Source: Chitinophagales bacterium
GTDB lineage: Bacteria > Bacteroidota > Bacteroidia > Chitinophagales > LD1
Assembly: GCA_025057415.1 (NCBI GenBank)
Contig: JANWXI010000005.1
Location: forward strand, 1-56,847
Reading direction: 5' to 3'
Length of the DNA stretch: 56,847 bases
The translations under genes and the position numbers were made by a program. The notes below the pieces were generated by a model that did no database searches, had not been told where the DNA came from, and worked only from the letters and a program-made list of their open reading frames with translations. Each line of letters begins with the position of its first letter. Positions within the stretch are counted from its first letter, which is position 1. Of this stretch, positions 39,661-56,847 are shown in pieces.

Positions 39661-39795
39661 AGCGCGTATGCCGGGTGAGGGATGCGAGCGGAAAGCCCGC
39701 AGCCGCGCCCGCGCCTGTGGCGCGGGCGCGGCGAGGACTTGGAGCGGGTCAGCCCGACCCCGCCGCCAGGCATCGCCCGGCGGGGGCACCCCCTA
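39661..39795 (-). repeat. GC-rich multi-hairpin intergenic repeat, copy B (reverse orientation)
   Basis: Reverse complement shares 42 identical nt with copy C (ggggtcgggctgacccgctccaagtcctcgccgcgcccgcgc); hairpins 39703-39731 and 39758-39785. Confidence 0.88.
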
Positions 39796-44984: not shown

Positions 44985-45373
44985 TGCTTAAATTTTAATG
45001 CGCGATGCTATGACCTTACTGTCACCAAAAAGAAAAATGAAATTAAACTTTGTGTTAACAGAGGGTTTTTGAAAATACCGGTGCGGCCGCATGAACACCG
45101 CACCGGCCTCAATTCCCCTAAATGACGATTAAAAAGAACGATAATTTATTAAATGTGTAGTTGAAGTACATGTATTGTTTTTATATCAATTTGGCTATGA
45201 TGAACATGTGCAAATCTTAATATCTTACTTTACGTGAGCTATAACCCAACTTTAAATTTCATGCAAGGAATCGCGCAATTCACATTCTGTTGCCATAGAA
45301 AATGAATAATGATTTAATAACAGTTATATAATAACGCATGCCCACTTTCGCGGCTGAAAAAAATACAACTACA

Positions 45374-48300
45374 ATGAACCGTACATTATTCTTGCTGCTT
45401 TTGTTACACTCATCTGTATATGCACAAACCAATTATTTCTGGAACGGAGGCAATCCATCAGCCAACCCTGCAAACGGAGGCAGCGGACTTTGGACTGCCA
45501 CCAACGCATGGCGACAACCCACCAGCAATGGTTCACAAGCAACCTGGTCAAATGGAAACAATGCCATACTGGAAGGTGTGGCAGGTGTAGTGAGTATCAA
45601 TACTGGTTCTACTGTTACCTGCTCCGCTATAACCGTTAAAACAACCAATTATACGATTACCTCTAACGGTAATACAGCAACAACGCTCAATGGCAACGTT
45701 ACGCTAGACCCGAACGTAGAATTACGACTTAACGATGCAACTACCACAGACAATCGCACACTTTATATAAACTCTGTGAACGGAGGAGCAAACTCCTCAT
45801 TGCGCATACAAGGTTCACAAACGGGCAGTAACGCCTCGCGGGTTGATTTGAATGCTCCGGGTGCATCTATAAACGTACCTGTGATTTTGAACGGTAACTT
45901 TACGAGTGGTACTCCTTTGATAGGTATTGTTGGCCGTCAGCCAAGTACTGCCGTGAATGCTACCATCACAAACAATTCCGGAATTCGCACGATGCTCGGT
46001 TCAACCAGTGGTAACAGTTTAGCTATCAACGGAGCTGTGCAGGGCACAGCGGGCGTTCAATTTTCAGCCGGCTCCAGCGGAGGCGCCGGTACAGTAATTC
46101 TCAACGCACCATCTACATACGGTGGCAACACACTGTTCAATATGTCCACTAATGGAACTGTACGGTTGGGAGTAAACAACGCATTACCAACCGGTACAGC
46201 AGTTACCTTCGGAGCCACTTCCGGAAATGGTGGCATTTTGGACCTGAACGCATTTAACCAAACCATCGCCTCGCTGAGCAGCAATGCCGGCGCAGTAGGC
46301 AGAGTGATAAACAATGCTACGGGTACAAGTACACTAACTATCAACGGCAGTGCAAACACTACTTTTTCCTTACCGATAGAGGATGGTACCGGAAGTGGTC
46401 GCATACTCAAATTAGTTAAGTCAGGCACCGGTGAGCTTACGCTTGCCGGAACGAACACCTTCACAGGTGGATTGGAGATTAACAACGGCAAAATCATACT
46501 CGGAAACGCAAACATCATTGCCAACACCTGTTCTCTCCGTTTAAACGGCGGTACATTCCGTACGGGAGCAACCACAGGTTTTAACGAAACAATGGATATG
46601 TTGCACCTAACCGATAACTCCACCATTGAGCTGGGTACAGGCAATCACACTCTTACGTTTGCCAACAGTAGCTCTGCCACCTGGACATCCGGTAAAACCC
46701 TCACTATCAAGAATTGGGCGGGGGCTCCCCTTACCTCTGGCTTACAAGGCAAAATAGTGGTAGGCCCAAGCGGACTTACGGCTGCTCAGTTAGCGCAAAT
46801 AACATTTGATGGATTTGGCCCGGGTGCAGCCATAATAGCCGGAGGTGAAGTGGTTCCAGTTGCTGCTACGCTCATCATTGACCCGACAAACATTGCGCCG
46901 GGTAACTTTGGAAGTATCAATGCAGGTTTATGCTCTACTGAAAAATCGTTTGATGTTTCCGGTAGCGGTTTGCCATCCGATGTTGTTATTACTCCACCTG
47001 CCGGATTTCAGATTTCTACTACTTCTGGTTCCGGCTTTACCACATCTCCCATAACACTGACAGTAACCGGTGGCATCTTACCCCTTACAACTATCTACGT
47101 AAAATTCTGCCCCACCGCTGCTATTTCTTACTCCGGTAACATTACCGTTACCAGCGGTGTTACACAAAATGTATCTGTGAGTGGTACAGGAGTGATTTCT
47201 ACGTACTACAGCCAGGGCAGCGGCACTGCCGAAACGGATGCGATTTGGTCTTACCTGCCCTCCGGCACACCTCAAACTATTGCTTCGCTGGGCGGTTTCA
47301 GTAATTTGCGAAATGTGCATATACAAACCGGACATCACGTAGTGATTAAAAACTCACTCGCTCTCACCGCCAAAGATTTGGTCATAGAAGCCGCTGCATC
47401 GCTTAAGGGCGCCCCCAATACGCCTGGAGCTTCCATCGCAACACCTTATTATATTAATGTACATGGCAACATCCAGGTGGACGGTGAACTCGGAAACGCC
47501 GGTGGCAACGACAGTTTGGGCTTGAATTATGAGGGACCTTCCGGAAATATCACCGGAACGGGTACCGTCAATTTAGCCCGCATCCGCAAGTCCTCTAATG
47601 TTCCTACCGCTGTGTCAACCTTATCAACCAATATAAATATAAACCTGTATTGGTCCGGCACCGCTCTATACAATAATCAGTCCGGTTCCACATTTAATTT
47701 TACGCAAAACGCCGGCACAATAAATTTTGTAAACAGTGGTGATTTTACCGTAGATGGCACAAATGGTCTAGGCAGCGGAAACCGTAACGGCACATTCACT
47801 TTCAATGGAACAGTGGTTGGTGCTGACACGATTTATGCTTATACCGACAATACATCAGGCACCACGGGCATTACAATCGGTCCTAACGGTGTTGTAAACG
47901 TAAAGCGGGTGATACATGGTCGCGTAGGTGTTACGGGCACATTTAATTTCAACGTGAGTGCCGGAGGCATATTGAATATATTTGACTTTATTGAGTTGCA
48001 AACCGGTACTTTCTCACCTGCAGGGAATGTAATACTCAAATCTACGGCTCAGAACCACTGTGCTTACATCAACAACTTCAGCACGGGTTTCACAGGTGTC
48101 TATAACGGTAATGTAAGGGCAGAGCGATATGTACCTGTAGCCGGAAGCAATCAACACTACACTTCTGTACCTGTAAGTGGTGTTACCTTTGCTGATTTGG
48201 CAGCTTCAGGACCCGATGAGCAGTTCATCATACCCACCTTAGATTGTGATGAAACGAAAAGCCATGTCAGTTCACCGTATGGAACTCATTTTGAGTATGT

Positions 48301-49948
48301 GGACGGGCATCAACCTCCAGGGCAATGCATGATAGGCAACTGGAAGATACAGAGCGCCGGACCATTGGTAACCGGAAGGGGATACTCCATGTATCTGACA
48401 GGTAATGCCTCATTCAGTGTCACCGGACAACCTTTCACAGGCAACACAACCGTACCTACTTTCAACAGTGGTTATCCAACGGTCAATACAAAACAAGGTA
48501 CACCTATCCAGAGCGGTTGGAACTTAGTTGGTAATCCATATCCTTCTGCCATAGACCTGGTGATTGACAGAACGGCTTCCGGATTCAGCAATGAAGTTCA
48601 GGTGTGGCAAACGAGCGGTCCTTACAGCGGAAGCTGGCAATCTTACGTAATTAATGGCACACCGGGAACTGTGGTCATACCTCCGTTTCAGGCATTTTTT
48701 GTTCGACAAACGGTATCAGGCGCAGGTAACTATCCTTTCTATCAGTCAGAGCGAAGCAAAAACGCTAACGTAAATTTCTACGCGCTAAACCAACCCAACA
48801 CTTTGACGCTCGAACTGGAGACACAGAGCGGATTGAAAGACCTTACACGCCTTGTATTCACAGCAGATGCCACTGCGGGATATGACCCGAGGTACGATGC
48901 CACAAAAATGGCAGGAGCACCAGGCCGTCCAACTTTGTTCAGCTACTCTGCTGTTGACCATTGGCTTTCTATCAACACATTGCCTGAGTTAAGTCAGCAG
49001 GTTAGCGTGCCCATTGGACTCCGACCCGAGCAAAACACCACTATGACACTTTCGGTTGCCGGATTGAGCAGTTTTGATCCTACGGTGTATGTTTACTTGG
49101 AGGACAAACTAACGGGCGTTTACCACAATCTGCGCAACGGACCTTACCAATTCACCACATCTGTAACTGATAACTATTACCGGTTTGTGTTGCACCTCAC
49201 GCCGCCGGTACAAATTAACATTACGAATGCCGGTTGTCAGGAAAACAGCGGGAAAATCTCAATTACACAAAACGGTCCGGCGGTGTGGAGTTACACCCTC
49301 ACACAAAACGATGTATCAATCTCGTCCGGAACACTCAGTGAAACAAACAGCATTAACCTCAATGAGGTTGCTGCAGGTATTTACACGCTCACCCTAACCG
49401 ATGCTTTAGGATACAGCGTGGTGAAAAACATTGTTGTAAACGGACCCGAGCTACCAAATGCATCCTTTAAAACCTCTGCAACAAATGCCGAAACCGGCCA
49501 GTGGATTGAATTTACACCCGATATTATTTCAGTTAATCACAACTACATCTGGAATTTTGGTGATGGAACGTATGCCACTACTCCTGCAGCCGTTCACGCT
49601 TATGCATCACCGGGTATCTATCAGGCCTCTCTGAAAGTAAACACACCGGAAGGTTGTGAGCAAATTGCCTCTCAGATTATAAACGTCACCGAAAGTATAG
49701 CAACCCACCTGAACACAACCCAGCAAGATGATATTGCAGTTTGGATGCAAGACAAATCTTTACACATAAAACTATTGGCGGAGAACAACGCTAAGGTTAC
49801 GCTGCTCAACGCTTTGGGTCAGGTGTTGTTGCACACGGAAATCACAGGCAACGAAACCCGCTACGATCTCCGCAACTACGCAGGTGTTGTTTATGTGCGT
49901 ATAAATCATGCAACCGGCGCATTTACACGCACCGTTATTATACAGTAA
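45374..49948 (+). CDS. Large secreted surface protein with autotransporter-type beta-helix repeats, PKD domain and T9SS C-terminal signal
   Basis: Signal peptide MNRTLFLLLLLHSSVYA; PATR-like SGTGELTLAGTNTFTGGLEINNGKIILG; PKD YIWNFGDGTYATTPAAVHAYASPGIYQASLKV; C-terminal AKVTLLNALGQVLL...YVRINHATGAFTRTVIIQ. Confidence 0.9.
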   Translation: MNRTLFLLLLLHSSVYAQTNYFWNGGNPSANPANGGSGLWTATNAWRQPTSNGSQATWSNGNNAILEGVAGVVSINTGSTVTCSAITVKTTNYTITSNGNTATTLNGNVTLDPNVELRLNDATTTDNRTLYINSVNGGANSSLRIQGSQTGSNASRVDLNAPGASINVPVILNGNFTSGTPLIGIVGRQPSTAVNATITNNSGIRTMLGSTSGNSLAINGAVQGTAGVQFSAGSSGGAGTVILNAPSTYGGNTLFNMSTNGTVRLGVNNALPTGTAVTFGATSGNGGILDLNAFNQTIASLSSNAGAVGRVINNATGTSTLTINGSANTTFSLPIEDGTGSGRILKLVKSGTGELTLAGTNTFTGGLEINNGKIILGNANIIANTCSLRLNGGTFRTGATTGFNETMDMLHLTDNSTIELGTGNHTLTFANSSSATWTSGKTLTIKNWAGAPLTSGLQGKIVVGPSGLTAAQLAQITFDGFGPGAAIIAGGEVVPVAATLIIDPTNIAPGNFGSINAGLCSTEKSFDVSGSGLPSDVVITPPAGFQISTTSGSGFTTSPITLTVTGGILPLTTIYVKFCPTAAISYSGNITVTSGVTQNVSVSGTGVISTYYSQGSGTAETDAIWSYLPSGTPQTIASLGGFSNLRNVHIQTGHHVVIKNSLALTAKDLVIEAAASLKGAPNTPGASIATPYYINVHGNIQVDGELGNAGGNDSLGLNYEGPSGNITGTGTVNLARIRKSSNVPTAVSTLSTNININLYWSGTALYNNQSGSTFNFTQNAGTINFVNSGDFTVDGTNGLGSGNRNGTFTFNGTVVGADTIYAYTDNTSGTTGITIGPNGVVNVKRVIHGRVGVTGTFNFNVSAGGILNIFDFIELQTGTFSPAGNVILKSTAQNHCAYINNFSTGFTGVYNGNVRAERYVPVAGSNQHYTSVPVSGVTFADLAASGPDEQFIIPTLDCDETKSHVSSPYGTHFEYVDGHQPPGQCMIGNWKIQSAGPLVTGRGYSMYLTGNASFSVTGQPFTGNTTVPTFNSGYPTVNTKQGTPIQSGWNLVGNPYPSAIDLVIDRTASGFSNEVQVWQTSGPYSGSWQSYVINGTPGTVVIPPFQAFFVRQTVSGAGNYPFYQSERSKNANVNFYALNQPNTLTLELETQSGLKDLTRLVFTADATAGYDPRYDATKMAGAPGRPTLFSYSAVDHWLSINTLPELSQQVSVPIGLRPEQNTTMTLSVAGLSSFDPTVYVYLEDKLTGVYHNLRNGPYQFTTSVTDNYYRFVLHLTPPVQINITNAGCQENSGKISITQNGPAVWSYTLTQNDVSISSGTLSETNSINLNEVAAGIYTLTLTDALGYSVVKNIVVNGPELPNASFKTSATNAETGQWIEFTPDIISVNHNYIWNFGDGTYATTPAAVHAYASPGIYQASLKVNTPEGCEQIASQIINVTESIATHLNTTQQDDIAVWMQDKSLHIKLLAENNAKVTLLNALGQVLLHTEITGNETRYDLRNYAGVVYVRINHATGAFTRTVIIQ

Positions 49949-52672: not shown

Positions 52673-52800
52673 TTTGATATAATGAAAAAATTCGTGCCGA
52701 AAATAGAATTTCAGTTTTAATGCAACGAATTACCCGTGCTATACGTATTTTCAGTTTTTAAACTGAAAAAATTTTATTTGCCGCTCAATCAACGTTGCGC

Positions 52801-55146
52801 ATGGCCGGTAAATTAGTTATAGTAGAGTCGCCCGCCAAGGCAAAAACCATTGGCAAGTTTTTAGGCAAAGAGTACAAAGTTGCATCCTGCTTTGGTCACA
52901 TTCGCGATTTGCCTGAAAGCGGACTTGCCATCAACATTGAAAAAAACTACGAACCGGAGTATGTAATCAGTGATGACAAAAAAGATGTGGTAAAAGAGCT
53001 TAAAAAACTTGCTAAGAATGCCGATGAGATACTACTGGCAACCGATGAAGACCGCGAGGGAGAGGCCATATCATGGCATTTGTGCGAGGTGTTAGGGATT
53101 AAGCCCAGCGAAGCCAAACGGGTTACTTACACAGAAATAACCGAGAAAGCCGTAAAGCATGCAGTGAAACACCCGCGCAAGTTAAATATGGATTTGGTAA
53201 ATGCGCAGCAGGCAAGGCGTGTTCTGGATCGTTTGGTGGGGTACGAAATTTCACCGGTCTTGTGGCGCAAGGTAAAGCCGCAACTTTCAGCCGGTCGCGT
53301 ACAGAGTGTTGCTGTGCGGCTCATCGTAGAGCGCGAACGGGAGATACGGGCGTTTCAGCCGGTAGCCTCGTATAAAATTATCGCACATTTTACAGTAACT
53401 GACCCAAGTGGCAAAAAAGTAACTTTCAAAGCGGAGCGGCCCGTAAATTTCAAAACAGAAAATGAAGCCCTGAATTTTCTTGAAGAAGTAAAAGACGCTG
53501 TGTTTACCGTAAGCGCTATTGAAAAGCGCCCCGGCAAACGCACTCCTGCGGCTCCGTTCACTACTTCCACTTTGCAGCAAGAGGCATCGCGCAAGTTGGG
53601 TTTTCCGGTAGCGAAAACTATGCTCGTGGCGCAGCGGCTCTATGAAAACGGGCACATCACCTACATGCGTACCGACTCCACTACACTCTCTGACTTTGCC
53701 CTCGAAGCAATCGAAAAAGAAGTAAAAAAGCGCTACGGCAAAGAATTTTATCAAAAGCGACAGTATGCTACCAAAAACGAGAATGCACAGGAAGCACACG
53801 AAGCGATTCGCCCATCGTACATAGACCAGGTATCCATCGAAGGAGACGCTGACGATCAACGGCTGTACGAACTGATTTGGAAGCGAACTGTTGCCAGCCA
53901 GATGGCTGATGCCGAAATTGAAAAAACCGTAATAGATATTTCTAACAATAAAAACAGCGAGGTGCTCAGAGCACAGGCCGAGGTAGTACTGTTTGAGGGT
54001 TTTCTGAAAGTTTACAACGAAAGCGTTGACGAAGAAAGCGAAGCCGATGAGGGTGCCGAAGTTATGATACCGCCCGTAAAAAACGGGCAGCAATTACCCT
54101 TAAAGGAGATGGTTGCCATCGAGCGTTTTACGAAGCCGGCTCCCCGCTACACCGAGGCAAGCTTAGTGAAAAAGTTAGAAGAGCTGGGCATAGGACGCCC
54201 CTCTACATACGCGCCTACCATTTCTACCATCCAAAAACGCAATTACGTTGTAAAAGAAAGCCGCGAGGGCGTGGAGCGCAAATACAAGGTGTTTACGCTG
54301 TGCGATAAAAAAATAACCAGCGAAATAAAAACAGAAATCACCGGCGCTGAAAAACATAAACTTTTTCCTACCGACATCGGGCTGCTCGTCACTGACTTTC
54401 TTATGGAAAATTTCCGCGACATCATGGATTACAATTTCACCGCAGAGGTTGAAAAAGAATTTGACGAAGTGGCATTGGGCAAAATGAAGTGGTACAAGAT
54501 GATTGACAATTTCTACAAGCCGTTTCATCAAGTAGTAGAAACCACCACCAAAGAAGCGCAGCGCGTAAGCGGAGAGCGCCTGCTCGGTGAAGACCCCGCC
54601 AGCGGTGAGCCCGTGATAGCCCGCATGGGTCGCTATGGTCCCATGGTACAAATCGGCAAAAGCGAGGAAAGCAGCGATAAAAAACCTCGCTTCGCCCGAC
54701 TCAAAGCCGGCCAGAGCATCGAAACCATCACCTTGCAAGAAGCTCTCGATTTATTTAAGTTGCCTCGTGTGCTTGGGTATGATGATGCCGGCAAAGAAGT
54801 TAAAGTCAACATCGGTCGCTTTGGCCCTTATGTGCAAGTTGACAAAACCTTTGCTTCCATACCCAAAGACAAGGACCCTTATACGATTACTTTAGAGGAC
54901 GCTCTAACACTCATCCGTGAAAAAGAAGATATAAACGCCAACCGCGTTATCCATAATTTTGAAAAAGAAGGCATTCAGGTGTTGAACGGACGTTACGGGC
55001 CGTATATCAAAAAGGGAAACAATAATTACAAAATTCCCAAAGATAAACAGGCCGAGTACCTCACGCTTGAAGATGTACTGATGATAATAGGCGAGCAGGG
55101 GCCAACTAACAAGGGCGGGAAAAGGTTTTTTAAACGAAAACGGTAG
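52801..55146 (+). CDS. topA: DNA topoisomerase I
   Basis: KLVIVESPAKAKTIGKFLG, ATDEDREGEAISWHL, ITYMRTDSTTLS, C-terminal GRFGPYVQ/GRYGPYIKKG repeats; start 52801 preferred to 52795. Confidence 0.97.
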   Translation: MAGKLVIVESPAKAKTIGKFLGKEYKVASCFGHIRDLPESGLAINIEKNYEPEYVISDDKKDVVKELKKLAKNADEILLATDEDREGEAISWHLCEVLGIKPSEAKRVTYTEITEKAVKHAVKHPRKLNMDLVNAQQARRVLDRLVGYEISPVLWRKVKPQLSAGRVQSVAVRLIVEREREIRAFQPVASYKIIAHFTVTDPSGKKVTFKAERPVNFKTENEALNFLEEVKDAVFTVSAIEKRPGKRTPAAPFTTSTLQQEASRKLGFPVAKTMLVAQRLYENGHITYMRTDSTTLSDFALEAIEKEVKKRYGKEFYQKRQYATKNENAQEAHEAIRPSYIDQVSIEGDADDQRLYELIWKRTVASQMADAEIEKTVIDISNNKNSEVLRAQAEVVLFEGFLKVYNESVDEESEADEGAEVMIPPVKNGQQLPLKEMVAIERFTKPAPRYTEASLVKKLEELGIGRPSTYAPTISTIQKRNYVVKESREGVERKYKVFTLCDKKITSEIKTEITGAEKHKLFPTDIGLLVTDFLMENFRDIMDYNFTAEVEKEFDEVALGKMKWYKMIDNFYKPFHQVVETTTKEAQRVSGERLLGEDPASGEPVIARMGRYGPMVQIGKSEESSDKKPRFARLKAGQSIETITLQEALDLFKLPRVLGYDDAGKEVKVNIGRFGPYVQVDKTFASIPKDKDPYTITLEDALTLIREKEDINANRVIHNFEKEGIQVLNGRYGPYIKKGNNNYKIPKDKQAEYLTLEDVLMIIGEQGPTNKGGKRFFKRKR

Positions 55147-56031: not shown

Positions 56032-56655
56032 TCACATCTCCAAACGGGGCGATAACTTCTTTTTGCGCTGCTTCCACATATAACCATACAATTTCGGAAA
56101 GTAAAGAATGTACAAAAGCGCTACTAACACCGATACCCATGTAAAAGGCGAAAGCCACACACTTTGCTGAGCAACTGCCGTGGCTATCAACAGCCACTCT
56201 CCGCATACACCCAGCGGATATAGCACAATAAACAGCGAATATCGCAGCCAAGTGAGCCAGCCGGTTTCCCTTTCCAAAAGTTGCATCAGGTAATATGCGT
56301 ATCGCACCACCTCTGTAATACTCCACGCAAGCGAAACGATAAACGTTCCGTACACAAACAACGGGTGAGTCACTTTTTTGTAATACAACCCCAACACAAC
56401 CACTACAAAAATCCGCGATAAAACCTGCGCAGCCACACTCAGCCATGGCGACTTCACCCAGCCCATGCGCGCGTGTAATATTTCAAGCAATGCCACACCC
56501 TGCGCCGCTGCCAGTAAATACATTGCCTCATCATCAAAAACACATCCGCCGCCAGCATACGCCATCACAAACAATCCCCACAGCATCAGCGCCGCCAGGT
56601 TATACCACTTTAAGTAAACATTCACATTCATACAAATCTTACGCTCAACAAACAT
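56032..56655 (-). CDS. HACD/Phs1/PTPLA-like 3-hydroxyacyl-CoA dehydratase
   Basis: LEILHARMGWVKSPWLSVAAQVLSRIFVV, SLAWSITEVVRYAYYLMQLL, WLRYSLFIVLYPLGVCGEWLLI, LYFPKLYGYMWKQRKKKL; multi-TM; Y-x6-E catalytic spacing. Confidence 0.9.
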   Translation of the reverse strand: MFVERKICMNVNVYLKWYNLAALMLWGLFVMAYAGGGCVFDDEAMYLLAAAQGVALLEILHARMGWVKSPWLSVAAQVLSRIFVVVVLGLYYKKVTHPLFVYGTFIVSLAWSITEVVRYAYYLMQLLERETGWLTWLRYSLFIVLYPLGVCGEWLLIATAVAQQSVWLSPFTWVSVLVALLYILYFPKLYGYMWKQRKKKLSPRLEM

Positions 56656-56731
56656 AAAACAAATTTAATATGTATCATGCGCTAAATATGGACGAAAAAA
56701 TATATTATATTATTAACTAATGTATTTTTTT

Positions 56732-56847
56732 GGGGGTGCCCCCGCTGCATCGCTTCGCGCAGCTACGCGCCGCAGCGGGGTCGGGCTGACCCGCTCCAAG
56801 TCCTCGCCGCGCCCGCGCTTTTGGCGCGGGCGCGGACTGCGGGCTTT
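56732..56847 (+). repeat. GC-rich multi-hairpin intergenic repeat, copy C (truncated by window end)
   Basis: gggggtgcccccgctgc...; hairpins 56740-56780 (ccccgctgc/gcagcgggg) and 56807-56835 (ccgcgcccgcgc/gcgcgggcgcgg). Confidence 0.88.

Follow-up and report, generated by a model that had tools for sequence, protein, structure and literature searches.

A HACD/Phs1-family dehydratase homologue in Chitinophagales and its probable place in a CoA-linked acyl cycle

Animals, plants and fungi use a HACD-type membrane enzyme for very long fatty acids. The preliminary description of a 56,847-nucleotide stretch of DNA from a Chitinophagales bacterium (contig JANWXI010000005.1, hereafter the window) placed a homologue of this eukaryotic-type enzyme at 56032..56655 of the minus strand, which raises the questions of whether the gene really belongs to the family and what it would do in a bacterium. 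Taken as its longest ORF, the gene encodes 207 amino acids. The profile search that had been proposed as a check gave a clear match to PF04387 (PTPLA), scoring 140.6 bits (cut-off, 27 bits) at an E-value of 4.6e-41, and residues 52-202 were aligned with positions 1-161 of the 162 in the profile. A single-sequence search identified Caenorhabditis elegans HPO-8 (PDB 22of_B) at E 2e-22, and the same chain matched the profile of the window protein's relatives at E 1.1e-38. HPO-8 was the only homologous PDB chain found; it is 35% identical to the window protein (75/214) over an aligned span of about 193-214 residues. All motifs previously quoted were present in this minus-strand ORF. The window protein is thus a member of the PTPLA/HACD family, as had been claimed. 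In an alignment of 33 relatives, the equivalent of Met9 (base 56631) is the start used by most of them; the true start of the gene is therefore probably Met9, and the first eight residues are probably untranslated. A match to the Bacteroidota -7 promoter consensus TAnnTTTG (TAAATTTG, 56660..56667, minus strand) fits this start, although it is a weak one because chance matches to the consensus are common.

The residues expected of an active enzyme were examined in the same relatives. Tyr146 (codon 56218..56220, minus strand) and Glu153 (codon 56197..56199, minus strand), which lie seven residues apart in YPLGVCGE as first noticed, were retained in all 33 homologues from the order and are aligned with the corresponding residues of HPO-8. 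They belong to a set of 18 positions invariant across all 33 relatives, also including E115, R118 and Y119, and this set was retained even at approximately 30% identity. We take Tyr146 and Glu153 to be the counterparts of Tyr149 and Glu156 of yeast Phs1, a pair whose catalytic role is said to go back to work by Kihara in 2008, a study that PMC4141788 cites, and by analogy propose a catalytic role for them in the window protein. The TExxRY and YPxGVxGE blocks are also conserved between the window protein and eukaryotic HACDs.

An AlphaFold2 model based on the 33-sequence alignment predicted six helices (pLDDT 92.9, pTM 0.87), each with a hydrophobic core, in agreement with the six-TM HACD fold that had been expected. 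Full-length homology, six helices (predicted here) and a Tyr/Glu pair seven residues apart are thus common to the window protein and eukaryotic HACD1/2, Phs1, PAS2 and HPO-8. A search of the PDB fold library with this model returned no match under E 0.001, and HPO-8 (22of) was not among the results. The best match in the viral fold library (BFVD) was a 544-residue Yasminevirus protein (A0A5K0U8K6; E 1.9e-5, TM 0.68) named for its steroid-dehydrogenase (TECR-like) C-terminal domain. The remaining part of this protein may be a HACD, in which case it would be a natural HACD-TECR fusion of two enzymes of the elongation cycle.

To what extent the window's own genome provides a setting for such an enzyme was judged from its other lipid genes. 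FabZ is present in this genome, whereas neither a MaoC hydratase nor FabG4 was found in it, so that a FabG4 gene beside the dehydratase gene was not found there either; nor was there a match to ELO (PF01151), in a bin about 94% complete and by a search run without a positive control. Since FabZ is present and MaoC, FabG4 and ELO were not found, the PTPLA gene is no replacement for FabZ, and its product may be the sole R-specific hydratase for CoA substrates in this genome. FabZ and FabA, which are hotdog-fold dehydratases, carry out the same chemistry on (3R)-hydroxyacyl groups but are soluble, ACP-linked and of a different fold from PTPLA. In addition, eight acyl-CoA dehydrogenase and 13 SDR matches were found in the window's genome; acyl-CoA dehydrogenases occur in all genomes of its family, whether PTPLA is present or not.

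More information came from the gene neighbourhoods of the relatives. Six genomes of the window's genus carry a gene for a long-chain acyl-CoA synthetase (PF00501) closely downstream of PTPLA, and the linked synthetase was found in ten genomes of the genus, every one of which bears PTPLA; this synthetase is absent from the window's genome. In two other families of the order (f67 and f73), the partner of PTPLA is a high-molecular-weight FabG (PRK08261, 482.9 bits against a cut-off of 410), whose closest PDB chains include mycobacterial FabG4, and the loci also encode a regulator (MarR or TetR) together with an acyl-CoA dehydrogenase of Bacillus FadE/VLCAD type. The most complete arrangement was observed in locus L036, in which the genes for acyl-CoA dehydrogenase, PTPLA and FabG4 are consecutive and overlapping and a thiolase gene is divergent. 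The PTPLA-FabG4 pair was also present in six further loci (L039, L040, L041, L043, L046 and L048). In f73 genomes without PTPLA, the MarR gene directly adjoins FabG4 with nothing between them. Within genus g192, the FabG4-MarR locus occurs both with PTPLA between the two genes (L041, L046 and L048) and without it (L059-L062), which is a clean gain/loss comparison for PTPLA. In genus g3, a gene for a membrane-anchored hydrolase of the metallo-beta-lactamase fold overlaps the start of PTPLA in five genomes (L020:7881-8741, L016-L018 and L021), and a DUF5723 gene follows PTPLA; the hydrolase might act on acyl-CoA in a thioesterase-like manner. The neighbouring acyl-CoA synthetase, acyl-CoA dehydrogenase, FabG4 and thiolase genes support the earlier idea of a non-canonical acyl-CoA pathway, and the position of PTPLA beside fatty-acid-degrading enzymes suggests a different use in these bacteria than in eukaryotes.

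A comparable locus is known from mycobacteria, where the gene adjoining that of FabG4, an NADH-specific enzyme that acts on CoA substrates and has been solved in complex with hexanoyl-CoA, encodes the dehydratase HtdX (reviewed in PMC6008564). By this comparison, PTPLA occupies the place of HtdX in the relatives' loci. Both arrangements have a FabG4-type reductase beside a hydroxyacyl-CoA dehydratase gene, and in L036 an acyl-CoA dehydrogenase and a thiolase are also nearby. The dehydratase differs, however, being the unrelated membrane protein PTPLA and not a hotdog-fold MaoC protein, and FabG4 is missing from the window's own genome.

We also analyzed the co-occurrence of these genes across the 399 genomes of the order, counting as FabG4 only full-length N-terminal matches of at least 117 bits (background, about 50 bits or less). 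FabG4 was confined to families f67, f73 and f75 (21 genomes) and was present in 10 of the 13 PTPLA genomes outside f1 (Fisher p 8e-12 overall; p 0.03 within bearing families only, kinship being ignored in both values). Of the 34 PTPLA genomes, 5 had MaoC, compared with 246 of the 365 genomes lacking PTPLA; within the bearing families the corresponding counts were 5/34 and 19/37 (p 0.001, kinship ignored). Among the 21 FabG4 carriers, 20 had PTPLA and/or MaoC (five PTPLA only, ten MaoC only, five both), and one had neither. It should be noted that the FabG4 and MaoC tests were post hoc, chosen after the data had been seen, and are uncorrected for kinship.

On this basis, it is very likely that the window protein catalyses the (3R)-3-hydroxyacyl-CoA/enoyl-CoA step. 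We favour, with some reserve, the reading that it is a membrane (3R)-3-hydroxyacyl-CoA dehydratase/hydratase whose substrates are long chains bound to CoA and which probably belongs to a beta-oxidation-like cycle; activity, stereochemistry, chain length and direction are all features that we infer. The enzyme would be an integral membrane (3R)-3-hydroxyacyl-CoA dehydratase/trans-2-enoyl-CoA hydratase of the HACD/Phs1 family, a six-helix bundle in which Tyr146 and Glu153 would hydrate or dehydrate a long, CoA-bound acyl chain across C2-C3. In this order, PTPLA most likely carries out R-specific hydration or dehydration within a CoA-linked beta-oxidation-like cycle, a job done elsewhere by MaoC-type hydratases such as HtdX. 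The cycle would run from acyl-CoA synthetase through acyl-CoA dehydrogenase, PTPLA and FabG4 (or a different SDR) as R-specific ketoacyl-CoA reductase/dehydrogenase to thiolase. Extending the relatives' pathway to the window's organism would be an extrapolation, as the PTPLA copy there stands alone. Against this pathway are the lack of a pathway neighbour for the window copy, whose upstream side is lost at the contig end, the lack of FabG4 and of the linked synthetase in the window's genome, the presence of acyl-CoA dehydrogenases throughout its family irrespective of PTPLA, and the five genomes that carry PTPLA and MaoC together.

The same enzyme could also work in reverse, dehydrating (3R)-hydroxyacyl-CoA as part of an acyl-CoA elongation cycle that builds the very-long-chain acyl groups of membrane lipids; condensation would then fall to an enzyme other than ELO, and reduction to a FabG-type protein. 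Eukaryotic HACDs are established to work in this direction (PMC10864336), FabG4 reportedly shows fourfold higher activity as a reductase (PMC6008564), and an adjoining acyl-CoA synthetase is compatible with both directions. However, no ELO protein was found in the window's genome. In addition, the redox enzyme encoded beside PTPLA in the relatives is an acyl-CoA dehydrogenase rather than an enoyl reductase, and a thiolase adjoins in L036, both of which favour oxidation. Because of these two partners, oxidation is the better of the two directions, and we consider elongation unlikely. The ER-elongase-type setting suggested at first was likewise not borne out: eukaryotic HACDs differ in this respect from the window protein, whose genome gave no ELO match and whose relatives have partners that look catabolic.

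A non-catalytic role is suspected for some PTPLA family members, and a diverged protein with such a role or another one, for example in lipid binding or as a scaffold in the membrane, would agree with a window copy that is solitary and on one of the longer branches of its family in the tree. Nevertheless, none of the 18 invariant positions, Y146 and E153 among them, is lost even where identity falls to approximately 30%, and the relatives' neighbours are acyl-CoA enzymes, which makes such a role rather improbable for the window protein.

The position of the gene on its contig bears on its source. The contig ends 192 bases upstream of PTPLA, and the upstream side is cut off there. On the other side, a convergent gene for a SirB1-like transglutaminase-core protein (PF13369; 55148..56026, plus strand), which is in conserved synteny and outside the pathway, is preceded by topA for DNA topoisomerase I (52795..55146, plus strand). 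The same topA/SirB1-like/PTPLA order was found in a relative (L019), and this synteny shows that PTPLA is located on a bacterial chromosome. Eukaryotic contamination of the metagenome bin, which the eukaryotic type of the family and the place at a contig end might bring to mind, can be rejected for practical purposes and has a negligible probability, given topA on the same contig, the similar GC content (47.3% for the gene vs 46.8% for the window), the lack of introns, the L019 synteny and the presence of the gene in 21 of 30 genomes of the window's family. Two further features of the contig were observed. Its end (56720-56847) is a GC-rich (70%) stretch, a 28-base piece of which is repeated exactly, in inverted orientation, at 39730-39757; it is probably a dispersed repeat that stopped the assembly. 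At 45338-49948, a predicted secreted protein of 1536 amino acids is encoded; it has autotransporter-like repeats and, close to its C-terminus, a PKD-like region.

Within a sample of the phylum and the genomes of the order, which were covered by profile searches, the distribution of PTPLA was narrow. In the order Chitinophagales, 34 of 399 genomes were above the PF04387 cut-off, in five families (f1, f67, f70, f73 and f75), and in a 396-genome sample of the phylum no genome except the window's own passed it. Two further Bacteroidota genomes gave sub-threshold matches, which are interrupted by stops and were taken as chance. No homologue was found in 14 control genomes, and a scan of the whole genome collection by exact peptides, which is too narrow a method, found one relative. 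An origin from a virus or plasmid was discarded, as plasmids, phages and three viral-contig scans contained no homologue. No report of a bacterial HACD was found in the literature searched. In contrast with eukaryotic HACDs, the window protein is bacterial and its kind confined, among the genomes searched, to a single order, with acyl-CoA synthetase, acyl-CoA dehydrogenase, FabG4 and thiolase genes as neighbours among the relatives. In a phylogenetic tree that took in one eukaryotic sequence and is unrooted against eukaryotes, family f1 formed one clade (support 100/97), and the labels could be placed with the minimum possible number of changes. This pattern agrees with long vertical inheritance, with losses, of a gene that is old in the order. 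Horizontal transfer from a eukaryote is plausible, the narrow bacterial distribution being what suggests transfer between eukaryotes and bacteria.

A conserved bacterial PTPLA beside acyl-CoA dehydrogenase, FabG4 and thiolase would show this membrane enzyme serving another CoA-linked cycle. Bacterial members would also provide small proteins suited to studies of structure and mechanism, and would bear on the direction of exchange, that is, whether the eukaryotic gene came from bacteria or passed to them. More tentatively, a branch of Bacteroidota may possess a membrane-bound, R-stereospecific acyl-CoA cycle with a eukaryotic-type HACD in place of MaoC/HtdX as the result of cross-domain exchange, either from eukaryotes or with bacteria as the source of the eukaryotic gene. 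If true, an exchange between domains of life would have rewired a core lipid step.
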